A stretch of 22,068 nucleotides of DNA, from IMG/VR virus record IMGVR_UViG_3300024264_001434, positions 1 through 22,068 of that record; one strand, written 5' to 3'. Origin of the DNA: a virus. Made by a program: the position numbers and the translations under genes. The number at the start of each line of letters is the position of its first letter. The stretch's first letter is position 1. The notes below the pieces were generated by a model. That model was not told the DNA's origin. It worked only from the letters and a program-made list of their open reading frames with translations, and ran no database searches. This document shows positions 7,562-21,205 of the stretch, piece after piece.

Positions 7562-8125
7562 CTAAAGTATTTCGTCTGCAAGACCAAGGTCAACCATCTG
7601 TTTAGCAGTATAATATTGGTCCGATGGATTTTTAATAAATTTTGTACGAACCTCTTGCATTGACATTCCTGTTGCTTCTCTCAATATATTTAAGCATCTT
7701 AGTTCACAGTTTTGATTTTCTTTCATCTGTGCTCTCATGTCATGCATCTTAGCATCTAAACTATCACTGTGTTGATGATTCATACAACCTGTATTCCTAC
7801 CAATCCAACGATATCCTTTTGTACCACTAGTAAAAATTAAAAAACCTGCACTCATAACAGCACCAATACCTACTGTGCTAATATTGTGATAACTGTTCTT
7901 CATTATATCAATTAAAGCAAACATCTCATATAGGTCTCCGCCTACAGTATTAACATAGAGTTCAAGTGTGCGTTTGGGTTTTTTCTGTAAGTTTGCTGAC
8001 AATATCCATTTAATTGTTTCACCTACATTTTCGCTTGTGATTTCTCCGTTTAGATAGTGTATGTCGTTATCTAGTAACGATCTATCTACGGCATCTGAAC
8101 TATTCCAATTATCGTATTTAGGCAT
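7562..8125 (-). CDS. divergent ClpP-like protease
   Basis: A 187-residue ClpP/crotonase-fold protein with an apparently intact triad: Ser92 in GAVMSAGF, His117 in CMNHQHS and Asp169 in NPSDQYYTAKQ. The 'NTVGGDLYEMFALIDIM' loop (59-75) corresponds to the ClpP glycine loop. It differs strongly from the ClpP at 1721-2314, so it is not a recent duplicate; T4-like marine phages are known to carry ClpP-like genes. The ATG has no ribosome-binding site, and the -10 of the promoter at 8132-8160 ends 6 bases before it, which suggests a leaderless message. Function may be virion-related or host-directed. Confidence 0.85.
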   Translation of the reverse strand: MPKYDNWNSSDAVDRSLLDNDIHYLNGEITSENVGETIKWILSANLQKKPKRTLELYVNTVGGDLYEMFALIDIMKNSYHNISTVGIGAVMSAGFLIFTSGTKGYRWIGRNTGCMNHQHSDSLDAKMHDMRAQMKENQNCELRCLNILREATGMSMQEVRTKFIKNPSDQYYTAKQMVDLGLADEIL

Positions 8126-9869: not shown

Positions 9870-11921
9870 TCACTTACCTGTTGCAATAAAAACTCCATTC
9901 CAATCTTTTGGTAAGTCTTGTGTTTGCTGGAATTCACAACGTTCAATCCACATCTTATAATATCCTTCCATCTTACCATCAAAGTGTCGCATTAAATTAT
10001 TGCAAAGTTTAATTGCTTCTTTAAAGTTTTGGTTTCTATATTCGTTATGCATACGAACATGCATCTCTTGACTTTTTGTTATTGCAGGTGTAACTTCAAT
10101 ATTTAATACTGTGTATATTGCAAGTCCAACACTTTTACCTTTAACTTGTAGATCATCTACTTTGAGATAGAAGAAGTCGTCTTTTGTTGCTTCATATGTT
10201 GCTTCTCCAACAAGTAGTAGACATCCGTACTCTTTACATTTACTTTCAATACGAGCGGCTGTACTGACTGAGTCTCCAAGGACATCGTAACTGTGTCTTT
10301 GTGTACTGCCCATTTCGCCAAGATAACCAAGACCAGTATTAATGCCGGCACCCATACCAACAGGTGGCCTGCCTTCGCTAGTAATTTTTTCATTAAACTT
10401 CTCCACTGCGGTTAACATTTTTAATCCTGTTTGGATTGCACTCTTAGGATGATGCGGATCGTCTAGTGGTGCACCGTGAATGTGCATACTTGCATCACCA
10501 ATATATTTAATAACCATACCATCTGCATCTAGTATAGGTTGCGTAATTGCATCCATATAACTATTCATAATTTTAGTTAGGCCTTTTACATCATCTCCAA
10601 AACTTTCACCTAATGGTGTAAATCCTCTTAGATCGGAGAAGCAAATTGAAACTTCTTTTTTCATACCATCTTTAATCAGTGCAGGGTTCTCTTGTAGCAT
10701 ACGTACTACTGTAGGTGACGCATATCCTGCGAACTGTTTCTTGATTGCTTGTTTCTCAAAAAACTCAACTACAAATCGATTAAACGTTGCATGAAACCCT
10801 GTAATAACAGTTACAAGTACAAACCAACTCCAATCCCACAGCATTAAATGCTTCGTAAACGCAATATAAGCACCGTACACTGGCGTTATAGAAGTAACGA
10901 GTATCATTGCCCCAACGGCCCAGTAAGGAGCACGTACGGCTACTAATATTAACAGTAAGCCACCTACGATTGTTGCTATCCATTCTACAAAGGTAGCATA
11001 ATCAAAACGTACAATAGTGTCTCCATTTATAATAGTTTGGAGGCTAGTAGCAATAGGCATATGTCCAAATTGTTCTCCACGTGGAGTGGCTATTACATTG
11101 GCTAACCCTTCTGCTGTAATTCCTACAATTACTGTTTTGCCTGCTAACATACTATAGTCATCTTGTGAAGCACTAACAGTTTCAAATTCTTTATTATAAC
11201 GTAACCATATTCTACCATATTGATCAGTTTTAATTGTTGCATATTTTGGAACACGCATTGCAGTGATTCCACCTTGTTGTGTTTTAACTTGATAACTTGG
11301 ATCACCAACAGCAACACGAATAGTTTCCATAGCAACACTAGGATATGTTTCGTCACCAACTCTCATTATAAGAGGCACACGTCTTACAACACCATCTATT
11401 TCTGGTACAGTCGATATTACTCCAACACCGTCTGCATTTAATCCTAATAATTCAATTGGACCTAACATACCCGGCCATTCAAACAACCAAGGCATAGGAT
11501 CGCCTATTTTAGCAACACCTCTTGGTACTGCGTTTTTATTAACACCTTGTGTTGTTCCTGTTTGAGCAATAACTACTCCATTACCTGCTAATGCTTCAGC
11601 AAGTTCTATATCTCCGCCTAGTCTATCTTCTTCAGAAAATAGTATAGGCATTACAATAATGCCAGCACCGTTTTCACGTAACTTCCAAATTATATCTGCA
11701 AGGGTTTTTCTGTTCCACGGCCACTGTCCGTATTTCTCAATTGACTTTTCGTCTATTTCTAAAATAGCAACATCTTGTGATACAGTAGGAATATCATACT
11801 GTTGTATAATATCAAAACTTTTTAATCGTAGTGTTTCTTTAACATAAGGATCAGAAAATCCTATAAAAGAAAGTACTGCTAAAGTAACTAAAGCAGTTGC
11901 CCAATGTGTGATATATTTCAT
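9870..11921 (-). CDS. CHASE2-domain class III adenylate cyclase-like protein
   Basis: A 683-residue membrane signalling protein. Order: N-terminal membrane helix (about 6-24); extracytoplasmic CHASE2 sensor (about 30-300; 'AILEIDEKSIEKYGQWPWNR' at 52-71 is diagnostic); two or three membrane helices (about 311-378); class III cyclase domain (about 420-610). Five of six expected catalytic residues are present: metal Asp430 and Asp476, Lys472, Asp546 (adenine choice) and Arg557. The transition-state Asn is Ser553 in VSTAAR. It would make cAMP in the infected cell in response to an envelope signal, if active. ATAAATA lies 5 bases before the ATG. It converges with the DUF3307 gene. Confidence 0.92.
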   Translation of the reverse strand: MKYITHWATALVTLAVLSFIGFSDPYVKETLRLKSFDIIQQYDIPTVSQDVAILEIDEKSIEKYGQWPWNRKTLADIIWKLRENGAGIIVMPILFSEEDRLGGDIELAEALAGNGVVIAQTGTTQGVNKNAVPRGVAKIGDPMPWLFEWPGMLGPIELLGLNADGVGVISTVPEIDGVVRRVPLIMRVGDETYPSVAMETIRVAVGDPSYQVKTQQGGITAMRVPKYATIKTDQYGRIWLRYNKEFETVSASQDDYSMLAGKTVIVGITAEGLANVIATPRGEQFGHMPIATSLQTIINGDTIVRFDYATFVEWIATIVGGLLLILVAVRAPYWAVGAMILVTSITPVYGAYIAFTKHLMLWDWSWFVLVTVITGFHATFNRFVVEFFEKQAIKKQFAGYASPTVVRMLQENPALIKDGMKKEVSICFSDLRGFTPLGESFGDDVKGLTKIMNSYMDAITQPILDADGMVIKYIGDASMHIHGAPLDDPHHPKSAIQTGLKMLTAVEKFNEKITSEGRPPVGMGAGINTGLGYLGEMGSTQRHSYDVLGDSVSTAARIESKCKEYGCLLLVGEATYEATKDDFFYLKVDDLQVKGKSVGLAIYTVLNIEVTPAITKSQEMHVRMHNEYRNQNFKEAIKLCNNLMRHFDGKMEGYYKMWIERCEFQQTQDLPKDWNGVFIATGK

Positions 11922-13393: not shown

Positions 13394-13400
13394 TATTTAT
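13394..13400 (-). promoter_or_regulatory. late-type promoter motif ATAAATA
   Basis: TAATAAATA on the minus strand, 4 bases (CGTT) before the ATG at 13389. It overlaps the TAA stop of the gene upstream by one base. Confidence 0.55.
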
Positions 13401-14842
13401 TATTGCTGAACTACAGTAGTTGTACCACAACCATTTGCGTTTAAGCAAGTTTGACTTAGTGAATAAGTTTGATTAGATGACCCTTGTTGTGTAAGGTCAA
13501 GCGTTGCACTGAAACCTGACATAGATACTGAAGTGTTGTGCTGTCCACTTCCATCTTGTGTAATGTCAACAGTTTGATCACTGCCAACAGCAATTTCTAC
13601 ATAGTGCGAACCTGCACCTTGTTGATATAAGTCTATATCATTGTCGTCACCTTGTACACTTAGAAATGCTTTTTTATCTCCGTCATTGAGTTGACTTGCT
13701 AAAACATTGTTGTTGTCACCATCTAAATCTAATGCAAAGAAGTGTCCATTAGTTCCTATACCGTTGTTGTGATTTTGTGTAACGCTTAATACATTAGTGT
13801 CACCATTAATATCAAACTCAACTCTATTGTCATCTGCACCTGATGTACTACCTTGATCAACAGTTGTTGTATTAGAGTTTCCTGTAATATCAAACAACAT
13901 AACATTGTTGTTACCTTTTTGTTTTAGTGTAGTAGTGTTGTTATTTCCTGTAATATCTGCATCAACTAAACTGTTTGTTGTACTACCAACACCTGCTATT
14001 AAGTTATCATTGCCGTCTTGTACGATAGTAAGTTTATTACTGTTGCCTACTTGCTGAATGTATATGCCGTTGCCACTGTGTGTTACTGCTCTTGATGTTG
14101 TAATCTGTGTAGTCTGTGCATTGCTTATACTTGATGTGTATGATGTTGTAGAGTATAATCCTGCTTCTTGCATTGCACGAGTTAGGAAGTCCACCATGTT
14201 ATTACTATATTGATGTGTTGATAGTAACTGTCCATAACCAAATGAAACTGTGATTGATCCACCATTACTACCATAATCCCAATTATACCAAGAGTTCCAA
14301 CTACTGCTTGAACTGTTTTTGGCCATTGCTGTACCGCCACTTGCGGTAAACAATTTGTCTGGTCCTGGCAATGTGTTTTCACTTGATGTGCTTGAAGCAT
14401 AATCTCCTACTGCAACTGAACCATAACAGGTATTACATCCACCTGTTATTGACATACTTCCTACACTTAATTTACTTTCAACTAGTGCTTCAATGCTACC
14501 TATTCTATTGGTTGCTCCGTTGGGTGCAAGAATAACTAAATGTCCTCCGTTGCCTATATAACTTTCATAGTTTGTTTTACACGAACTACCACAGTTTGAA
14601 GTTCCTGCTATATCAATTACAAGTTCTTTGCCTGATAGATCACTTGAACTTACTGTGCCACTTGTACTTCCTGTTACAGTAAATCCTAAATCTTCAAGTT
14701 TGCTTTTTATATGATTGTATTGTGAACTTGTGTTTGTTCCACCTGTGCTATAATATATGAATGCATCATTTGCAAATGCTTGTATAGGCAATACTAATAA
14801 TAAAAATAATATACTACTGTACTTGAATAATGTCAATTTCAT
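13400..14842 (-). CDS. secreted protein: GATase-like domain plus curlin-type repeats
   Basis: A 480-residue exported protein. Signal peptide at about 1-22 (MKLTLFKYSS... ends QAFAND). Residues about 23-230 resemble a glutamine-amidotransferase-like (ThuA-type) fold: 'IKSKLEDLGFTVT', 'SGKELVIDIAG', 'IGNGGHLVILAPNG'. No catalytic Cys-His pair can be assigned, so it may be a binding domain. Residues about 260-480 are Asn/Gln/Gly/Asp/Thr-rich with curlin-like units (GIYIQQVGNSNKLTIVQDGN; N-x(4)-Q-x-G-x-x-N). It shares IYIQQ-x-GN...QDG with the protein at 15934-16638. The ATG at 14842 has GGAG 9 bases upstream and lies 29 bases inside the FecR gene. Probable substrate of the CsgG pore. Confidence 0.8.
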   Translation of the reverse strand: MKLTLFKYSSILFLLLVLPIQAFANDAFIYYSTGGTNTSSQYNHIKSKLEDLGFTVTGSTSGTVSSSDLSGKELVIDIAGTSNCGSSCKTNYESYIGNGGHLVILAPNGATNRIGSIEALVESKLSVGSMSITGGCNTCYGSVAVGDYASSTSSENTLPGPDKLFTASGGTAMAKNSSSSSWNSWYNWDYGSNGGSITVSFGYGQLLSTHQYSNNMVDFLTRAMQEAGLYSTTSYTSSISNAQTTQITTSRAVTHSGNGIYIQQVGNSNKLTIVQDGNDNLIAGVGSTTNSLVDADITGNNNTTTLKQKGNNNVMLFDITGNSNTTTVDQGSTSGADDNRVEFDINGDTNVLSVTQNHNNGIGTNGHFFALDLDGDNNNVLASQLNDGDKKAFLSVQGDDNDIDLYQQGAGSHYVEIAVGSDQTVDITQDGSGQHNTSVSMSGFSATLDLTQQGSSNQTYSLSQTCLNANGCGTTTVVQQ

Positions 14843-15929
14843 TTTGCCCATCTCCAAGTTGATAATCTCTGTATTCAAAATCATTTTGTTGCATATTAAC
14901 ATTATAACCATACTGTTGATCTAAACGTAATTCATAAAAGTTTCCTAATCCGTCATCACGTCTTAATACCCAGTCTGGTGCTTGGTTATATAATTCTATT
15001 CCTGTTTCAGGATCTTTACCTAATTGTATACCTTGTACTCTCGAGTCTAATGCTCCACGCATTAATCTTGCTAACTGTTGATTAATTAAATCTAATACGT
15101 TTGCAAGAAAGTTTTGTTCTAAAAAATCTATGTCTAAGTCAGTCATCCAGATATCTTTAGTTTGTACAGCAAGATAGTCTGAATTAAGTTCGTCAAATTC
15201 TAAAAAGTCAAATCCTAAAAAGTCTGCAAGTTTTTCTGCTCTTATTCTTTCTTCTTCGTCTGATATTTCTACAGGCTTACGAATGATTAATAAGTTTCCA
15301 ATTAAATTTTCGTCAATGTCTAACATTAAAGGTTTGAGAGGATTATTCTTTGCTGTTTCAACTACTGTTGCCTGAAATGCTTGATTAAGAATTACAGTAC
15401 CAACATCAGAACTTACTTCAATTTCTCCTACAACACAGACTGCTGTTTTTCCATTACCGGAGCAACTAGGTAATAATATAATTGTTGAACTACCTGTTTC
15501 ATCTACAGTCATCGAAAAGTCTGTACCACGTACACCAATTACTGCTGTTGGAGTTTTGATCTTTACATTCTGTCTAGAGTTCTTAGCAATTTGTCCAGAT
15601 GCGTACCTAACTGTTCCAAATGACGCTTTTAGAGAAAGACTTCCAGTTGAAGTGTTTGGATCGTATACAAATTCATCAATAACCAGTTTACTGTTTTGTG
15701 TAACATCTACTCTTGTTTCATCTAAAAACTGAATTGCCGTTTTACCTTTTTTTGTTCTAATAGTGTCGTAACTTTCAACTCCAGAACCTTCTTCACTAAC
15801 AATCTTATCGCCAGCCTTTCTTTCGATGGTCGTGGCTCCTACTTGCTCGATTACTTCGCCAATGCTGGCAAACGCACTCGAGGTCATAGCCGTGAACAAT
15901 AGTATAGTTGTTACGAACAGTCTATGCAC
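14814..15929 (-). CDS. FecR-domain periplasmic protein
   Basis: A 371-residue protein with a signal peptide (MHRLFVTTIL... ending AFAS). A FecR-type domain spans about residues 22-190: 'SYDTIRTKKGKTAIQFLDETRVDV', 'SLKASFGTVRYASG', 'IKTPTAVIGVRGTDFSM'. The C-terminal 180 residues are acidic and novel to me (LADFLGFDFLEFDELNSDYL). FecR-domain proteins act as periplasmic sensors or structural partners of surface fibres. The start is GTG, 4 bases after the upstream curlin gene's stop. It sits between two curlin-repeat genes, so a role in fibre export or anchoring is likely. Confidence 0.87.
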   Translation of the reverse strand: MHRLFVTTILLFTAMTSSAFASIGEVIEQVGATTIERKAGDKIVSEEGSGVESYDTIRTKKGKTAIQFLDETRVDVTQNSKLVIDEFVYDPNTSTGSLSLKASFGTVRYASGQIAKNSRQNVKIKTPTAVIGVRGTDFSMTVDETGSSTIILLPSCSGNGKTAVCVVGEIEVSSDVGTVILNQAFQATVVETAKNNPLKPLMLDIDENLIGNLLIIRKPVEISDEEERIRAEKLADFLGFDFLEFDELNSDYLAVQTKDIWMTDLDIDFLEQNFLANVLDLINQQLARLMRGALDSRVQGIQLGKDPETGIELYNQAPDWVLRRDDGLGNFYELRLDQQYGYNVNMQQNDFEYRDYQLGDGQNEIDIIQVQ

Positions 15930-15933
15930 AGGA

Positions 15934-16638
15934 TTAGTCGTCCTGCGTTATGTCGATTTCAGCACTGTCACCACTAGTGGTTAAACTGATTATATTATCA
16001 TACAATCCACTTTGTGTAATGTTGATAAGTCCGCCATCTCCTGTATGACTATGTGTTAAAGTGTGTCCGTTAGTATCGCCGTCATCATTGATATCATAAG
16101 TTGCTGTATTACCTGCACTACCTAATGAATTTGAAATGTCGATATCTGCTATTGCACTTTTACCGTCTACTGTTAGTGTAACTGTTTCTGCCGCACCACT
16201 TGTGATATCTATTGTACCAGTGAAGGTTTGTGCATCGGCCGCTTCACCTACGCTTACATTAATATCTGCATTTGATCCTGTTATGTCAATACTCAAACTT
16301 ACAGTTTCACAATTTCCTGCTCCTGCACTATCACATAGTAATGCCACATCGTTACTGCTACCAGTAAGATCAATATTACCTGTGTAAGTCGTACCTTTAA
16401 CTATTGCCGATACAACGTTAGCACCACCAATTTGATCAATGTTAAAAGTCATTGAGTTCCCGGTAAGTACTACACCTTGCGATGATGTACCGATTACGTT
16501 GTTTTGTCCGTCTTGTGATATATCTAAATCTAAGTTGTTACCTGACTGTTGAATGTATATGTCATTCGCAAATCCAGACCCTACTGAGAAAAAGAATAAT
16601 ACAAAACCCATCATTATATATTTTACTTTATTTTGCAT
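15934..16638 (-). CDS. curlin-repeat secreted protein (CsgA/CsgB-like)
   Basis: A 234-residue protein with a signal peptide (cleavage likely near SGFAND) and curlin-type repeats: 'IYIQQSGNNLDLDISQDGQNN' begins the mature part, then units such as 'MTFNIDQIGGANVV' and 'INITQSGLYDNI'. The composition is Asn, Gly, Asp, Ser, Thr and Gln with few charges, typical of amyloid subunits. The spacing between repeats is looser than in E. coli CsgA. AAGGAG lies 5 bases before the ATG. It follows csgG by 17 bases and is presumably exported through CsgG as a fibre subunit or nucleator. Confidence 0.85.
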   Translation of the reverse strand: MQNKVKYIMMGFVLFFFSVGSGFANDIYIQQSGNNLDLDISQDGQNNVIGTSSQGVVLTGNSMTFNIDQIGGANVVSAIVKGTTYTGNIDLTGSSNDVALLCDSAGAGNCETVSLSIDITGSNADINVSVGEAADAQTFTGTIDITSGAAETVTLTVDGKSAIADIDISNSLGSAGNTATYDINDDGDTNGHTLTHSHTGDGGLINITQSGLYDNIISLTTSGDSAEIDITQDD

Positions 16639-16655
16639 TCTCGCTCCTTGTTCTT

Positions 16656-17483
16656 TTAATGAAGATGGTGTCCTTCTGAAGTTATTTCTTTTCCTTTATA
16701 CTTCCAAAGTTCGCCTTCTTCGCCTTTCTTTACTATTTCCCCTACACATGCCTCTATTGCGGCTCTAACTGCGTAGTTGGTTGGTTCATTGACCGCGGAA
16801 CCCGTTTCTAATTCTAACGCTTTCGTTCCAAGATCTAAAAACCTAAATACATCTGCTCCAGACTTGTGACTTGCTATTGTTTTCTCACAGGCTACAGTAA
16901 GTAATACTTCACCTGTTTGAACACTTACAATTCGCATTGCCACTGTTACTTGATCAGTTCGATAACTTGTGTTAGCGCCGATACCAAAATATCTTGCTCC
17001 AACTCCGCCACTAGTTGTATTTGAATCATAGCCTACTACGCCACCTTCTAATAACAACCCTGCAAATAACATAGGTTTTAACTTAACTGCCTCTTTGCCT
17101 TCAAATACTTCCCTTGTTGATCTTATCAATTGCCTTTCTTTAACCAAATTATCTAAGCCTACACGTTCTACAACGGTAAACCAAGAACCTCCTCCTACCT
17201 TCTGAAGTGCGTTAATAACCCAAACTTCAGACCCTTGCGTTACCGCACTAGACAACTGACTAAATGAGTCACTTGGTTTTCGTTGTCCAGTTTTGTCCTG
17301 AAAACTATAAACCGCTATAGTAATTTTAGGACCATCAAGTTTTGGCATTGCAACTAAAGTATCCTGTATGGGAGAGCGTGCCTCGGTTGGACTGCTCCAG
17401 TTTACTTTTGCTGTTTGTGTAGCACACCCGTTTAAAAACGTCATTGCCAAAAACCCAATTATTAAAAATCTTATACCTCTCAT
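16656..17483 (-). CDS. csgG: CsgG, curli secretion channel lipoprotein
   Basis: A 275-residue lipoprotein. The lipobox is LNGC with Cys20 as the acylation site. The CsgG family is recognised from 'DGPKITIAVYSFQDKTGQRKPS' (about 50-71), 'SSAVTQGSEVWVINAL' (about 77-92), 'FTVVERVGLDNLVKERQLIR' and 'LEGGVVGYDSNT' with the transmembrane hairpin region around 'SGGVGARYFGIGANTSYRTDQVTVAMRIVS'. In E. coli nine subunits form an outer-membrane pore that exports curli subunits. The length matches the family. It starts 3 bases after csgF. Finding it in a likely phage is unusual. Confidence 0.95.
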   Translation of the reverse strand: MRGIRFLIIGFLAMTFLNGCATQTAKVNWSSPTEARSPIQDTLVAMPKLDGPKITIAVYSFQDKTGQRKPSDSFSQLSSAVTQGSEVWVINALQKVGGGSWFTVVERVGLDNLVKERQLIRSTREVFEGKEAVKLKPMLFAGLLLEGGVVGYDSNTTSGGVGARYFGIGANTSYRTDQVTVAMRIVSVQTGEVLLTVACEKTIASHKSGADVFRFLDLGTKALELETGSAVNEPTNYAVRAAIEACVGEIVKKGEEGELWKYKGKEITSEGHHLH

Positions 17484-17486
17484 ATT

Positions 17487-17936
17487 TTAGAATCCAAATC
17501 CGCTCAATGGAACAACAATCTCTGTAGTGCTACCGTCCGCTTCTGTAATTAGAAGTGTAATAGTATCAGACGTTGTATCCTTTACCCAGTAAATCGTAGC
17601 ACCCTCAATAGTTGCAGTTCCAGAACTGTCTCCGTCATCAGTAAACATATTGTCAACTAACTGTTTAGACAGTTGAGCATAGATTCGAGATTCTATGTTG
17701 TTTAAAAACTTTGCTAAGGTAGTGCTATCCGCTTCACGTTTGGCTTTAGCCGCATCGGCCGCCGCTTTTTCTTCTGCTTCTTTCTTTCGAGTAAACTGTA
17801 ACTGTTCAATTGACAGTACATGATTACTGTATCCTGATCCACTAAAAGATGGATTTTTAAAAGTGAATACTTGTTCGCTCGCTCCAGCCGTACCAATAAG
17901 ACAGACGAACAATGTAGTCGTGATAATTTTTTTCAT
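17487..17936 (-). CDS. csgF: CsgF, curli assembly factor
   Basis: A 149-residue secreted protein. Signal peptide MKKIITTTLFVCLIGTAGAS, then 'QVFTFKNPSFSGSGYSNHVLSIEQ', the CsgF hallmark that inserts into the CsgG pore as a second constriction. An Ala/Lys-rich helix (about 50-70) and 'SRIYAQLSKQLVDNMF' also fit. The ATG at 17936 has GGGAGAG 4-6 bases upstream; an ATG at 17951 would include that ribosome site and add MGEQK. First gene of the curli-type operon, diverging from the Fis-like gene. Confidence 0.92.
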   Translation of the reverse strand: MKKIITTTLFVCLIGTAGASEQVFTFKNPSFSGSGYSNHVLSIEQLQFTRKKEAEEKAAADAAKAKREADSTTLAKFLNNIESRIYAQLSKQLVDNMFTDDGDSSGTATIEGATIYWVKDTTSDTITLLITEADGSTTEIVVPLSGFGF

Positions 17937-18055
17937 TTTCTGCTCTCCCATTGATATTTACCGTGATCTTTAACATTTGTTAAATACTCATAGCAAAGTA
18001 ATTACAGTATTATTTACTGTAAAATATTTTACGATTAACCAGGAGTATTTAACCA
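17937..18055 (-). promoter_or_regulatory. divergent csgF / Fis-like control region with three palindromes
   Basis: This intergenic region holds a GTAAATA late-type motif toward csgF (17955-17961) and a second one at 18011-18017. It has three inverted repeats: TTTAACA-TT-TGTTAAA (17969-17984), TTACAGTA-5-TACTGTAA (18002-18022) and the perfect palindrome GTAAAATATTTTAC (18019-18032). The last two overlap. No strong -35/-10 pair toward the Fis-like gene is visible. The repeats look like operator sites for a dimeric regulator, plausibly the Fis-like protein itself. Confidence 0.5.
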
Positions 18056-18765: not shown

Positions 18766-18850
18766 TGGCTCTAGGGGAAGGATTCGAACCTCCAAGACTT
18801 TCGTCACACGAGAAACAATCGTGCGTGTTTACCTATTTCACCACCCTAGA
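18766..18850 (-). tRNA. class II tRNA with anticodon GTT (Asn codons)
   Basis: An 85-base tRNA: acceptor TCTAGGG/CCCTAGA, G73, CCA encoded. The D arm GTGAAATAGGTAAACAC is leucine-like. Anticodon stem CACGA/TCGTG closes loop TTGTTTC, giving GTT, which reads AAC/AAT. A long variable arm (GAC-GAAA-GTC) makes it class II, whereas bacterial tRNA-Asn is class I. T37 instead of a purine is also odd. It lies 7 bases after the Asx-synthetase-like gene. What it is charged with cannot be told: the anticodon says Asn, the body says Leu or Ser, and G73 fits Ser or Asn. Confidence 0.8.
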
Positions 18851-18857
18851 TTATAAC

Positions 18858-19688
18858 TTATATCTTATTGATATTTTCTAGTGCAGGGATCATACGTGTT
18901 ACACCTATGCCTCCGCCCACTCTTTGGAAGAAGTCAAACTCTAAAAACTTTTCAAGTTCTGCTTCTACACGTTCTTTGCCAAACAGTTCAAACAATAGTT
19001 TTGAGTATGCTCCTTCTGTAATACTGTGGAATGTATCACGCATCATATCAACATCACACGAACGTTCTGCTGATCCAATAGTTTCCATGCCACCTAATAT
19101 AACATCGATCTTTTTAGCAGTTTTGCCATCAGCATTTCTACTCATATTCCAAAATGGACTTGTTAGTTCTGGAAAGTCTGTAATCATTGTTGTACCAAAC
19201 TCCTTGTGCATTTTAGTTTCTTCATCAGCAGTCATTTCGTAATCTTCTGCAAGTTCGTAATGCTTTTGCCATTCAGCATAAGTTTTTTCAGTAGGCTTTT
19301 TGAATTCTAAGTATTCACATAGTTCATACTCCATCTTTTTAAGATCATCTATGTCACCTGGCATTTCAAATTCAAACATTGGAAATATTATATCATGTCT
19401 ACCTGGGATTGCATTTGGTTCCTGCCTATAGGAAGTGGAGACACAAAAAAACCCCTTACTATCGGGGCTACTTAATAATTCATGTTCGAGCCACATCTGG
19501 CCTGTTTGCGGTAGTGGCCAAGTCTTGCCTGCGTATTGATATGTTGCTACATTGAATGGATCTTCACATGCGGCAAGTATGCTGAGTCTGTTTTGGGTGT
19601 GGACTTCTAAAAATCCTTTATCCAAAAAAAATGACCTTAAAAGGCCAATTGTGTTTGTAAATTTTTGTGGGGATATTAACTGCGTCAT
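18858..19688 (-). CDS. class IIb aminoacyl-tRNA-synthetase-like protein (Asp/Asn type, catalytic domain only)
   Basis: A 276-residue protein made of a class II synthetase core. Visible motifs: substrate loop PLPQTGQ (58-64), motif 2 'SYRQEP...GRHDIIFPMFEFE' with Arg88 and Glu90, 'ITDFPELTSPFWNM', 'GGMETIGSAER' and motif 3 GGGIGVTRM (Arg265). These match AspRS/AsnRS and the related archaeal asparagine synthetase (AS-AR). The N-terminal OB-fold anticodon-binding domain is missing. It could make asparagine, charge a special tRNA, or modify something else. GGA lies 8 bases before the ATG. The tRNA with a GTT anticodon follows directly. Confidence 0.82.
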   Translation of the reverse strand: MTQLISPQKFTNTIGLLRSFFLDKGFLEVHTQNRLSILAACEDPFNVATYQYAGKTWPLPQTGQMWLEHELLSSPDSKGFFCVSTSYRQEPNAIPGRHDIIFPMFEFEMPGDIDDLKKMEYELCEYLEFKKPTEKTYAEWQKHYELAEDYEMTADEETKMHKEFGTTMITDFPELTSPFWNMSRNADGKTAKKIDVILGGMETIGSAERSCDVDMMRDTFHSITEGAYSKLLFELFGKERVEAELEKFLEFDFFQRVGGGIGVTRMIPALENINKI

Positions 19689-20782: not shown

Positions 20783-20856
20783 TGGAGTGGACGACAGGAA
20801 TCGAACCTGTATACATGGATTTGCAATCCACTGCGTAACCATTCCGCCACGCCCAC
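20783..20856 (-). tRNA. tRNA-Cys (anticodon GCA)
   Basis: A 74-base tRNA: acceptor GTGGGCG/CGTCCAC, T73 (the cysteine discriminator), CCA encoded. Anticodon stem GTGGA/TCCAT closes loop TTGCAAA, giving GCA. T arm ACAGG-TTCGATT-CCTGT. Second tRNA of the unit that begins with tRNA-Trp. Confidence 0.95.
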
Positions 20857-20949
20857 AAAGTGGAGGCCTTTCTAGAGGGCACCTCCTATTCCCGCCTGAT
20901 CTTATATGTAGGGGCTCAGGCCTAACCACGTTTTTACTCGTTCCCTATT
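20857..20949 (-). other. structured spacer between tRNA-Trp and tRNA-Cys, possible ncRNA
   Basis: 93 bases without an ORF, GC-richer than the surroundings. Two hairpins: GCCTGA/TCAGGC with a 16-base loop, and GGAGG...CCTCC extended by GCC/GGC. AGGCCT occurs twice, able to pair with itself. It shares the ordered blocks CGTG, TGAGCC, AGATCA and AGGCGGGA with the spacer at 8161-8292. Too long for a plain processing spacer; identity unknown. Confidence 0.35.
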
Positions 20950-21023
20950 TGGCATAGGTGGAGGGAATCGAACCCCCATTAACTGGTTTGGAATCAGTTG
21001 TGTTACCATTACACCACACCCAT
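20950..21023 (-). tRNA. tRNA-Trp (anticodon CCA)
   Basis: A 74-base tRNA: acceptor ATGGGTG/CACCTAT, G73 (tryptophan discriminator), CCA encoded. Anticodon stem ACTGA/CCAGT (A31-C39 mismatch) closes loop TTCCAAA, giving CCA. T arm GGGGG-TTCGATT-CCCTC. Its first base directly follows the T-run of the upstream terminator. Confidence 0.93.
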
Positions 21024-21058
21024 AAAAAAACCCCCGTAAGCATTATAACTCCGGGGGT
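21024..21058 (-). terminator. intrinsic terminator, probably an attenuator, before tRNA-Trp
   Basis: Minus strand ACCCCCG (21058-21052), 15-base loop, CGGGGGT (21036-21030), then a run of T to 21024. The T-run abuts tRNA-Trp. Promoter 21177-21205 lies upstream, so this terminator stands between promoter and tRNA genes. The 8 bases ACCCCCGG (21058-21051) can instead pair with CCGGGGGT (21100-21093) inside the leader ORF. Confidence 0.85.
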
Positions 21059-21083
21059 CTAAAATTCATTGCTGAACAACTGC

Positions 21084-21149
21084 CTACAAGACACCCCCGG
21101 GTGGTTCACAACCACACCATTCATAATTATTTGTATACTTCGTATTCAT
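21084..21149 (-). CDS. 21-residue leader peptide with Trp-Cys-Gly-Cys
   Basis: A short ORF encoding MNTKYTNNYEWCGCEPPGGVL, ending in TAG. AAGGA lies 9 bases before the ATG, and a consensus-like promoter is 28 bases further upstream. Codons 11-14 are Trp, Cys, Gly, Cys, and the genes that follow the terminator are tRNA-Trp and tRNA-Cys. The codons just after the Trp/Cys run overlap the strand that can form an antiterminator. This is the layout of amino-acid attenuator leader peptides such as TrpL. The peptide itself probably has no function. Too short to be certain without comparison to relatives. Confidence 0.65.
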   Translation of the reverse strand: MNTKYTNNYEWCGCEPPGGVL

Positions 21150-21176
21150 TGTTCGCTTTCCTTATTAACTTTTTAC

Positions 21177-21205
21177 AGTATATTATCTTTTTGTCGTATT
21201 GTCAA
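21177..21205 (-). promoter_or_regulatory. sigma70-type promoter TTGACA-17-TATACT
   Basis: Minus strand TTGACA (21205-21200), 17 bases, TATACT (21182-21177). It overlaps the 3' end of the gene at 21183-21443 and reads the leader ORF, tRNA-Trp and tRNA-Cys. Confidence 0.85.

Follow-up and report, generated by a model that had tools for sequence, protein, structure and literature searches.

A sigma70-type promoter, a ribosome site, a short leader ORF, an intrinsic terminator and the genes of a tRNA unit follow one another on the minus strand of the window (the whole stretch of DNA analyzed here, a fragmentary IMG/VR record of 22,068 bases; Table 1). A preliminary description, made without database searches, had reported the promoter, the AAGGA site, the ORF, the pairing segments, the leader stop, the terminator and the tRNAs, all on the minus strand, and each of them was found exactly where it had been placed. 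The T-run of the terminator abuts tRNA-Trp, so that a terminated transcript would carry no tRNA. tRNA-Trp and tRNA-Cys are separated by a 93-nt spacer (20857-20949), in which neither a recognizable tRNA nor an unusual fold was found and which is well conserved in two relatives (L013 and L015); its place is occupied in other relatives by tRNA-Pro, -Ser, -Gln or -Tyr.

Table 1. Leader and tRNA unit of the window, in order of transcription
Feature	Position	Strand	Basis
Sigma70-type promoter TTGACA-17-TATACT	21177..21205	-	Sequence, 11/12 consensus positions
Shine-Dalgarno AAGGA, with ATG 9 nt further on	21159..21163	-	Sequence
Leader peptide ORF (ATG start), MNTKYTNNYEWCGCEPPGGVL and stop	21084..21149	-	17-24-codon ORF kept in 81 distinct leaders
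Regulatory codons TGG TGT GGT TGT (leader codons 11-14)	21119-21108	-	Sequence
Antiterminator 5' strand (segment 2), CCGGGGGT, within the final codons of the leader	21093..21100	-	Pairs with 5' terminator arm
Leader stop codon	21086-21084	-	
Segment 3, ACCCCCGG, shared as antiterminator 3' strand and terminator 5' arm	21051..21058	-	Pairing, folding
Terminator 3' arm CGGGGGT (21036-21030) and T-run to 21024	21024..21036	-	Fold
tRNA-Trp (cca), first gene of the unit	20950..21023	-	ARAGORN, Rfam
tRNA-Cys (gca), second gene of the unit	20783..20856	-	ARAGORN, Rfam

The source of the window is an uncultured, large, T4-like phage lineage, which is judged to be marine from its relatives. The genes near the leader encode a metallophosphoesterase, a NifU-like protein, an S-adenosylmethionine decarboxylase and a class II tRNA-synthetase-like "tRNA ligase" that is common to Prochlorococcus phages P-SSM2 and P-SSM7, and the large terminase of a related 236,751-base contig is nearest to those of Pseudomonas phage PA5oct-like and Agrobacterium/Sinorhizobium jumbo phages (~50% identity). 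Elsewhere in the window, again on the minus strand, we noted a tRNA-Asn immediately 3' of a small class II tRNA-synthetase-like gene (18766-19688), an arrangement also present in P-SSM7; a 683-aa phage protein with CHASE2 and adenylate/guanylate cyclase domains (9870-11921); a FecR-domain protein adjoining proteins with curlin-like repeats recognized by eye (13400-17951), possibly a curli-like cluster in a phage; a ClpP-like protease that matches phage head maturation protease families (1721-2314); and a further protein that is ClpP-like by eye only (7562-8125).

Recurrence of the leader and its Trp codon in relatives

Relatives were found via a search with the downstream phosphoesterase, which yielded 80 loci (proteins 58-100% identical), many of them with a tRNA unit just upstream and tRNA-Trp as its first gene. 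The order of elements in diverged relatives comprises a TTGACA/TATAGT promoter, AAGGA, an ATG or GTG ORF of ~20 codons with a G-run near its end, the stop, a GCCCC...GGGGC-T7 terminator and, as the first tRNA 3' of the leader, tRNA-Trp. At the equivalent place the promoters of relatives read TTGACA...TATAGT/TATACT, their ribosome sites are AAGGA/AGGAA or GAGAGA-like, and typical leader peptides are MFKTNTTNITCWPPGSRGMS, VLRTIQQSSLQCWCPSQGRGMS and MIKTSTMYIKCWRRNQGRMS. Judged by its recurrence in 81 distinct leaders of diverged relatives, the arrangement exceeds chance; all counts given here refer to distinct sequences, not to independent events.

Within the 81 peptides, no internal residue other than tryptophan is invariant. 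The finder that yielded these leaders, and the 84 leader-unit combinations considered below, required TGG, and the real test of the Trp codon is provided by two scans that were blind to it. The first applied a leader-end motif (GGGG), in a pattern without the Trp codon, to all 2.9 million viral contigs and returned 100 stretches; among the matches listed, all complete leaders have an in-frame TGG, with tRNA-Trp next. The second had only the terminator and the antiterminator's 3' half as its pattern, and all 63 distinct upstream contexts that it gave contain an ORF with an in-frame TGG and a G-run (54 were recognized by script, the remaining nine failed only the ribosome-site filter and were read by eye, and in two of the 63 tRNA-Trp is uncalled since the contig ends there). 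Relatives with the terminator and without the ORF or its Trp codon, which the preliminary description had named as grounds for refutation, were thus sought and are absent from these 63 contexts. The conservation of Trp and Cys codons that it had anticipated was borne out, Trp being invariant and Cys codons being absent only where the unit has no tRNA-Cys (tRNA-Cys in 0 of 15 units with Cys-less leaders). Small indels in three leaders (L321, L144 and L344) shift the end of the frame and place the stop further downstream, with TGG and the G-run kept.

The remainder of the peptide bears on whether the ORF encodes a functional small protein, the terminator serving only to insulate the tRNAs from upstream transcription. 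A terminator combined with a separate promoter upstream of the tRNA would indeed insulate, but the window has no promoter between the two; moreover, the N-terminus is highly variable (58 different 8-residue N-termini among the 81 distinct leaders), and the part that is conserved, the C-terminus, overlaps the antiterminator strand. We consider this explanation extremely improbable.

The switch is dispensable, since three related phages (L137, L143 and L152) have tRNA-Trp behind a bare promoter with no leader. In the window and nine related records, no leader was found for tRNA units of other kinds (Ser, Thr, Leu, Arg, Glu, Asn, Met), which there have plain promoters or directly follow genes, without a leader or terminator. 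A conserved, structured element of 50-75 nt lies between the terminator and tRNA-Trp in L059, L061, L050, L055, L040, L319 and L339, and the same element occurs 5' of tRNA-Ser in L304 and L309. One example, CTACACTACGCCTTACTGCAATAAGGTGTCTTTGCAGAGACAGAGGCCTCGAAAGGGTCAAAGTTAGTGTAG, folds with a z of -2.5 and has complementary CUGCAA/UUGCAG loops, which could kiss; no Rfam family matched this element in the seven loci scanned.

Alternative pairings of the leader RNA

According to the preliminary description, the antiterminator and the terminator share one strand and exclude each other, a claim on which pairing and folding agree across relatives. RNA folding, suggested there as a check, gave for both regions of the window structures more stable than those of shuffled sequences (-20.8 kcal/mol and z -2.4 for the antiterminator, -18.8 kcal/mol and z -3.2 for the terminator). 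The stretch from the G-run through the 5' terminator arm folds as a single long hairpin, and the interior of the antiterminator, taken without its G-C clamp, has a mean z of -2.4 against dinucleotide shuffles (n = 80, 94% below -1). The window's own interior is no better than shuffles (z -0.2), and its stem is carried by a longer 8-bp clamp. Sequences were folded one by one because RNAalifold, run on the whole antiterminator alignment, recovered only four G-C pairs, a result of the poor alignment of the interior.

The clamp formed by the G-run and the C-arm is retained in 79 of 80 distinct sequences, mostly as G-C pairs with some G-U and one A-U replacement, and in L175 both sides of the stem are altered with the pairing preserved (GAGGGC/GCCCTC). 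Changes that break only the antiterminator, the other finding that would have told against the original proposal, therefore come down to the sole remaining sequence, a single mismatch in the L013/L014 variant (GGGAG), which belongs to a sub-lineage near the window. The intrinsic terminator is present in all leader-bearing relatives. A further hairpin, GTGGTT/AACCAC, had been described over the Trp/Cys codons, and its conservation could not be demonstrated: for this 1:2-type protector pairing, 74 of 76 folds have the G-run paired to upstream sequence, with a mean z of just -0.4.

The spacing of these parts was also compared. The G-run starts 11-14 nt upstream of the stop in 77 of 81 leaders, in the zone covered by a terminating ribosome, and the distance from the Trp codon to the G-run is nearly always at least 12 nt, so that a ribosome stalled at Trp would leave the G-run free. 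The placement of the stop and the regulatory codons thus suits an attenuator for Trp and for most Cys codons; some Pro and Ser codons are separated from the G-run by just 6-10 nt, and a ribosome stalled at them would partly mask the G-run. Equilibrium folding of the full stalled transcript predicts the terminator to be favored in 57 of 63 leaders, which means that the switch must be kinetic, with the antiterminator forming first during transcription. Kinetic switching is also assumed for other attenuators.

The same order of folding would hold without any ribosome, the antiterminator again forming first, and, together with the lack of demonstrated conservation of the protector hairpin, it is compatible with a sensor of translation in general, in which a slow or absent ribosome frees the antiterminator and ribosome availability or speed is registered, not particular tRNAs. 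Such a sensor would not account for the Trp codon in every complete leader, nor for other codons that track the tRNAs of the unit even among synonymous ones (see below), and we regard it as quite unlikely.

Leader codons and the tRNA content of the unit

By comparison of leader sequences with the units that follow them, the codons around Trp track the other tRNAs of their own unit, which goes beyond the Trp and Cys of the preliminary description. The part of that description in which the leader carries codons for sensing Trp and Cys is supported; what had to be refined is its range, as the codons follow the whole tRNA unit. Where a unit has a given tRNA, the cognate codon is present in the leader in all cases for Cys (44/44), Pro (39/39), Ile(tat) (AUA, 11/11) and Tyr (7/7), and in part of the cases for Ser(tga) (UCA, 11/13), Gly (3/4), Arg(acg) (3/5) and Gln (3/8). 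Over the 84 leader-unit combinations and these eight tRNA types, a total of 121 of 131 tRNA genes are matched, vs. 81.2 ± 3.4 after shuffling. The tRNA calls are those of ARAGORN, and some units may be incomplete, many of the contigs being fragments. The matching rule had been derived from the first 64 combinations; applied to 19 held-out combinations from later scans, it matched 23 of 24 tRNA genes, vs. 17.9 ± 1.4 after shuffling, a value reached by 6 of 20,000 shuffles.

Synonymous codons provide an internal control: AUA tracks tRNA-Ile(tat), whereas AUU and AUC do not, and UCA tracks tRNA-Ser(tga), whereas other Ser codons do not. Individual loci illustrate the correspondence, e.g., a CWRR leader with the unit Trp-Arg(acg)-Cys (L044), a GWPS leader with Trp-Pro-Gly-Ser-Met-Ile (L196), and a YWYP leader with an ATA codon and the unit Trp-Ile(tat)-Tyr-Pro (L190). 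With Pro codons in nearly every leader, the signal for Pro is weak. tRNA-Met, -Glu, -Lys and -Arg(gcg) are unmatched by leader codons, and tRNA-Gln is poorly matched too.

The leader adjoins its unit, making joint inheritance possible, and many codons persist without a matching tRNA in the unit (25 of 69 leaders for Cys, 38 of 77 for Pro). The correspondence might accordingly be a by-product of common descent, or of block recombination of leader and tRNAs, with the further tRNAs remaining unsensed. Two results argue that descent is not its cause. When shuffling is confined to clusters of similar leaders (diverged by no more than ~15% outside the codon zone), 110 ± 2.3 matches are obtained vs. 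the 121 observed, which none of 20,000 shuffles reach, and the outcome is again 0 of 20,000 when Pro and Cys are left out. When each unit is set against its nearest relative without a given tRNA, 37 codon differences are concordant and 3 discordant. In addition, two leaders (L039 and L040) differ by one base in 69 (CCA vs. TCA), and only the L040 unit contains tRNA-Ser(tga). We therefore hold an origin of the signal by descent or block recombination to be very unlikely.

The same data bear on a TnaC-like arrest peptide, which would sense free tryptophan and stall at its own stop codon, and for which the position of the invariant Trp 7-11 codons upstream of the stop and the prolines that often come after it could be cited. 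Within that range, however, the distance from Trp to the stop and the intervening residues vary, with no fixed spacing; a ribosome arrested at the stop would hide the G-run, which would favor termination; and sensing of free Trp cannot explain why non-Trp codons follow the tRNA content. Hardly any credence can be given to this possibility.

Proposed regulation and comparison with known systems

Taken together, the directly observed anatomy, conservation, mutually exclusive pairings and codon-tRNA matching make it very probable that the element is a ribosome-mediated (leader-peptide) transcription attenuator by which a phage multi-tRNA operon regulates itself. The attenuator reading of the preliminary description is thereby strongly supported and extended, in the absence of expression data or any other experimental data. 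RNA polymerase would initiate at the promoter, and a ribosome would translate the leader. With an ample supply of charged tRNA-Trp, or of another of the unit's tRNAs (tRNA-Cys in the window), the ribosome would proceed to the stop and cover the G-run, the 5' terminator arm would remain free, and the terminator would form and halt transcription short of the tRNAs. Under scarcity of a cognate tRNA the ribosome would stall at its codon (for Trp, ~12-22 nt upstream of the G-run), and the G-run with the sequence that follows it would pair with the 5' terminator arm as the antiterminator, allowing the tRNA genes to be transcribed. With the supply restored, ribosomes would again reach the stop and early termination would resume, which would amount to a homeostatic loop on tRNA supply.

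The change of the leader codon set with the tRNA set of the unit across relatives implies that the operon senses its own products. Such a loop is sensible if the tRNA itself is short, because extra tRNA cannot cure a shortage of amino acid. Stalling, a read-through response to charged tRNA and a benefit to the phage are inferred only. Possible sources of shortage include phage codon demand, host shut-off and host nucleases that cut tRNAs, and the benefit might consist in matching phage codon demand or in replacing host tRNAs lost to infection or to tRNA-cutting defenses. Phage tRNAs that evade tRNA-cutting host defenses are reported in PMC10264068 and PMC11555353; that such defenses are what creates the shortage for these phages is our inference.

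In a broader sense, we think it likely that the element represents a new class of phage regulation, in which multi-tRNA operons gauge their own tRNA supply via the ribosome and leader codons evolve to keep up with the operon's tRNA content, perhaps as an alarm raised by the destruction of specific tRNAs in host defense. If true, this would be the first leader-peptide attenuator of tRNA genes, as far as searched, and a case of direct feedback in which scarcity of tRNA at the ribosome switches on the tRNA genes themselves. It would address the old question of why phages carry tRNAs: tRNAs made only when ribosomes lack them would point to the replacement of depleted tRNAs, not to constant codon compensation, and the leader codons would form a written record, legible from sequence alone, of the tRNAs that a phage treats as limiting.

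The element was not seen when the window and the leaders of two relatives were compared by blastn with 50,697 phage records, in which the only matches were to tRNA bodies, to a stretch resembling a terminator in Pelagibacter phage HTVC010P, or due to chance. Its motif (a narrow pattern) was not found in 84,980 species genomes, bacterial genomes included. Rfam returned only tRNAs above threshold, weak leader and sRNA matches being rejected as below the gathering score. No tRNA-Trp unit is annotated around the homologous genes of two cultured phages, Sinorhizobium phage phiM12 and Prochlorococcus phage P-SSM7. The titles and abstracts retrieved from 5.39 million open-access papers (the subscription literature lay outside the search), including those from a related search on phage tRNAs, contained no precedent for tRNA genes under attenuation or leader-peptide control, or for such control in phages.

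Leader-peptide attenuators are known from the trp, his, thr, ilv, leu, pheA and pheST operons. Like the attenuators of the trp/his/thr type, the phage element combines a promoter, a ribosome site and a short ORF with regulatory codons with a mutually exclusive antiterminator and intrinsic terminator; as in classical attenuators, the stop codon is so placed that the antiterminator is blocked by a ribosome terminating there; and, as in the thr and ilv leaders, several amino acids are read by a single leader. The general logic of attenuation is outlined in PMC1183508. Where classical attenuators control biosynthetic or aminoacyl-tRNA synthetase genes, the phage element targets tRNA genes; the codons of its leader vary with the tRNA content of the unit, and a conserved protector hairpin is not shown. 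None of the Rfam attenuator families is matched by the element. The mechanism as such is known for biosynthetic and tRNA-synthetase operons, and for tRNA genes as its target no precedent was found.

T-box riboswitches have in common with the phage element a tRNA-responsive antitermination of transcription. They bind tRNA directly through RNA, without a leader ORF, and Rfam scans of the element gave no T-box match. Like the phage leader, TnaC-type arrest peptides are short leader peptides that contain an indispensable Trp. Whereas TnaC responds to free Trp and works via Rho, the phage element has an intrinsic terminator, its spacing varies, and its regulatory codons are not limited to Trp. Finally, the phage tRNAs that offset the loss of host tRNAs (PMC10264068 and PMC11555353) are likewise phage genes that possibly replace depleted tRNAs; those accounts concern the tRNAs themselves, whereas the element proposed here would be a feedback switch of tRNA genes.
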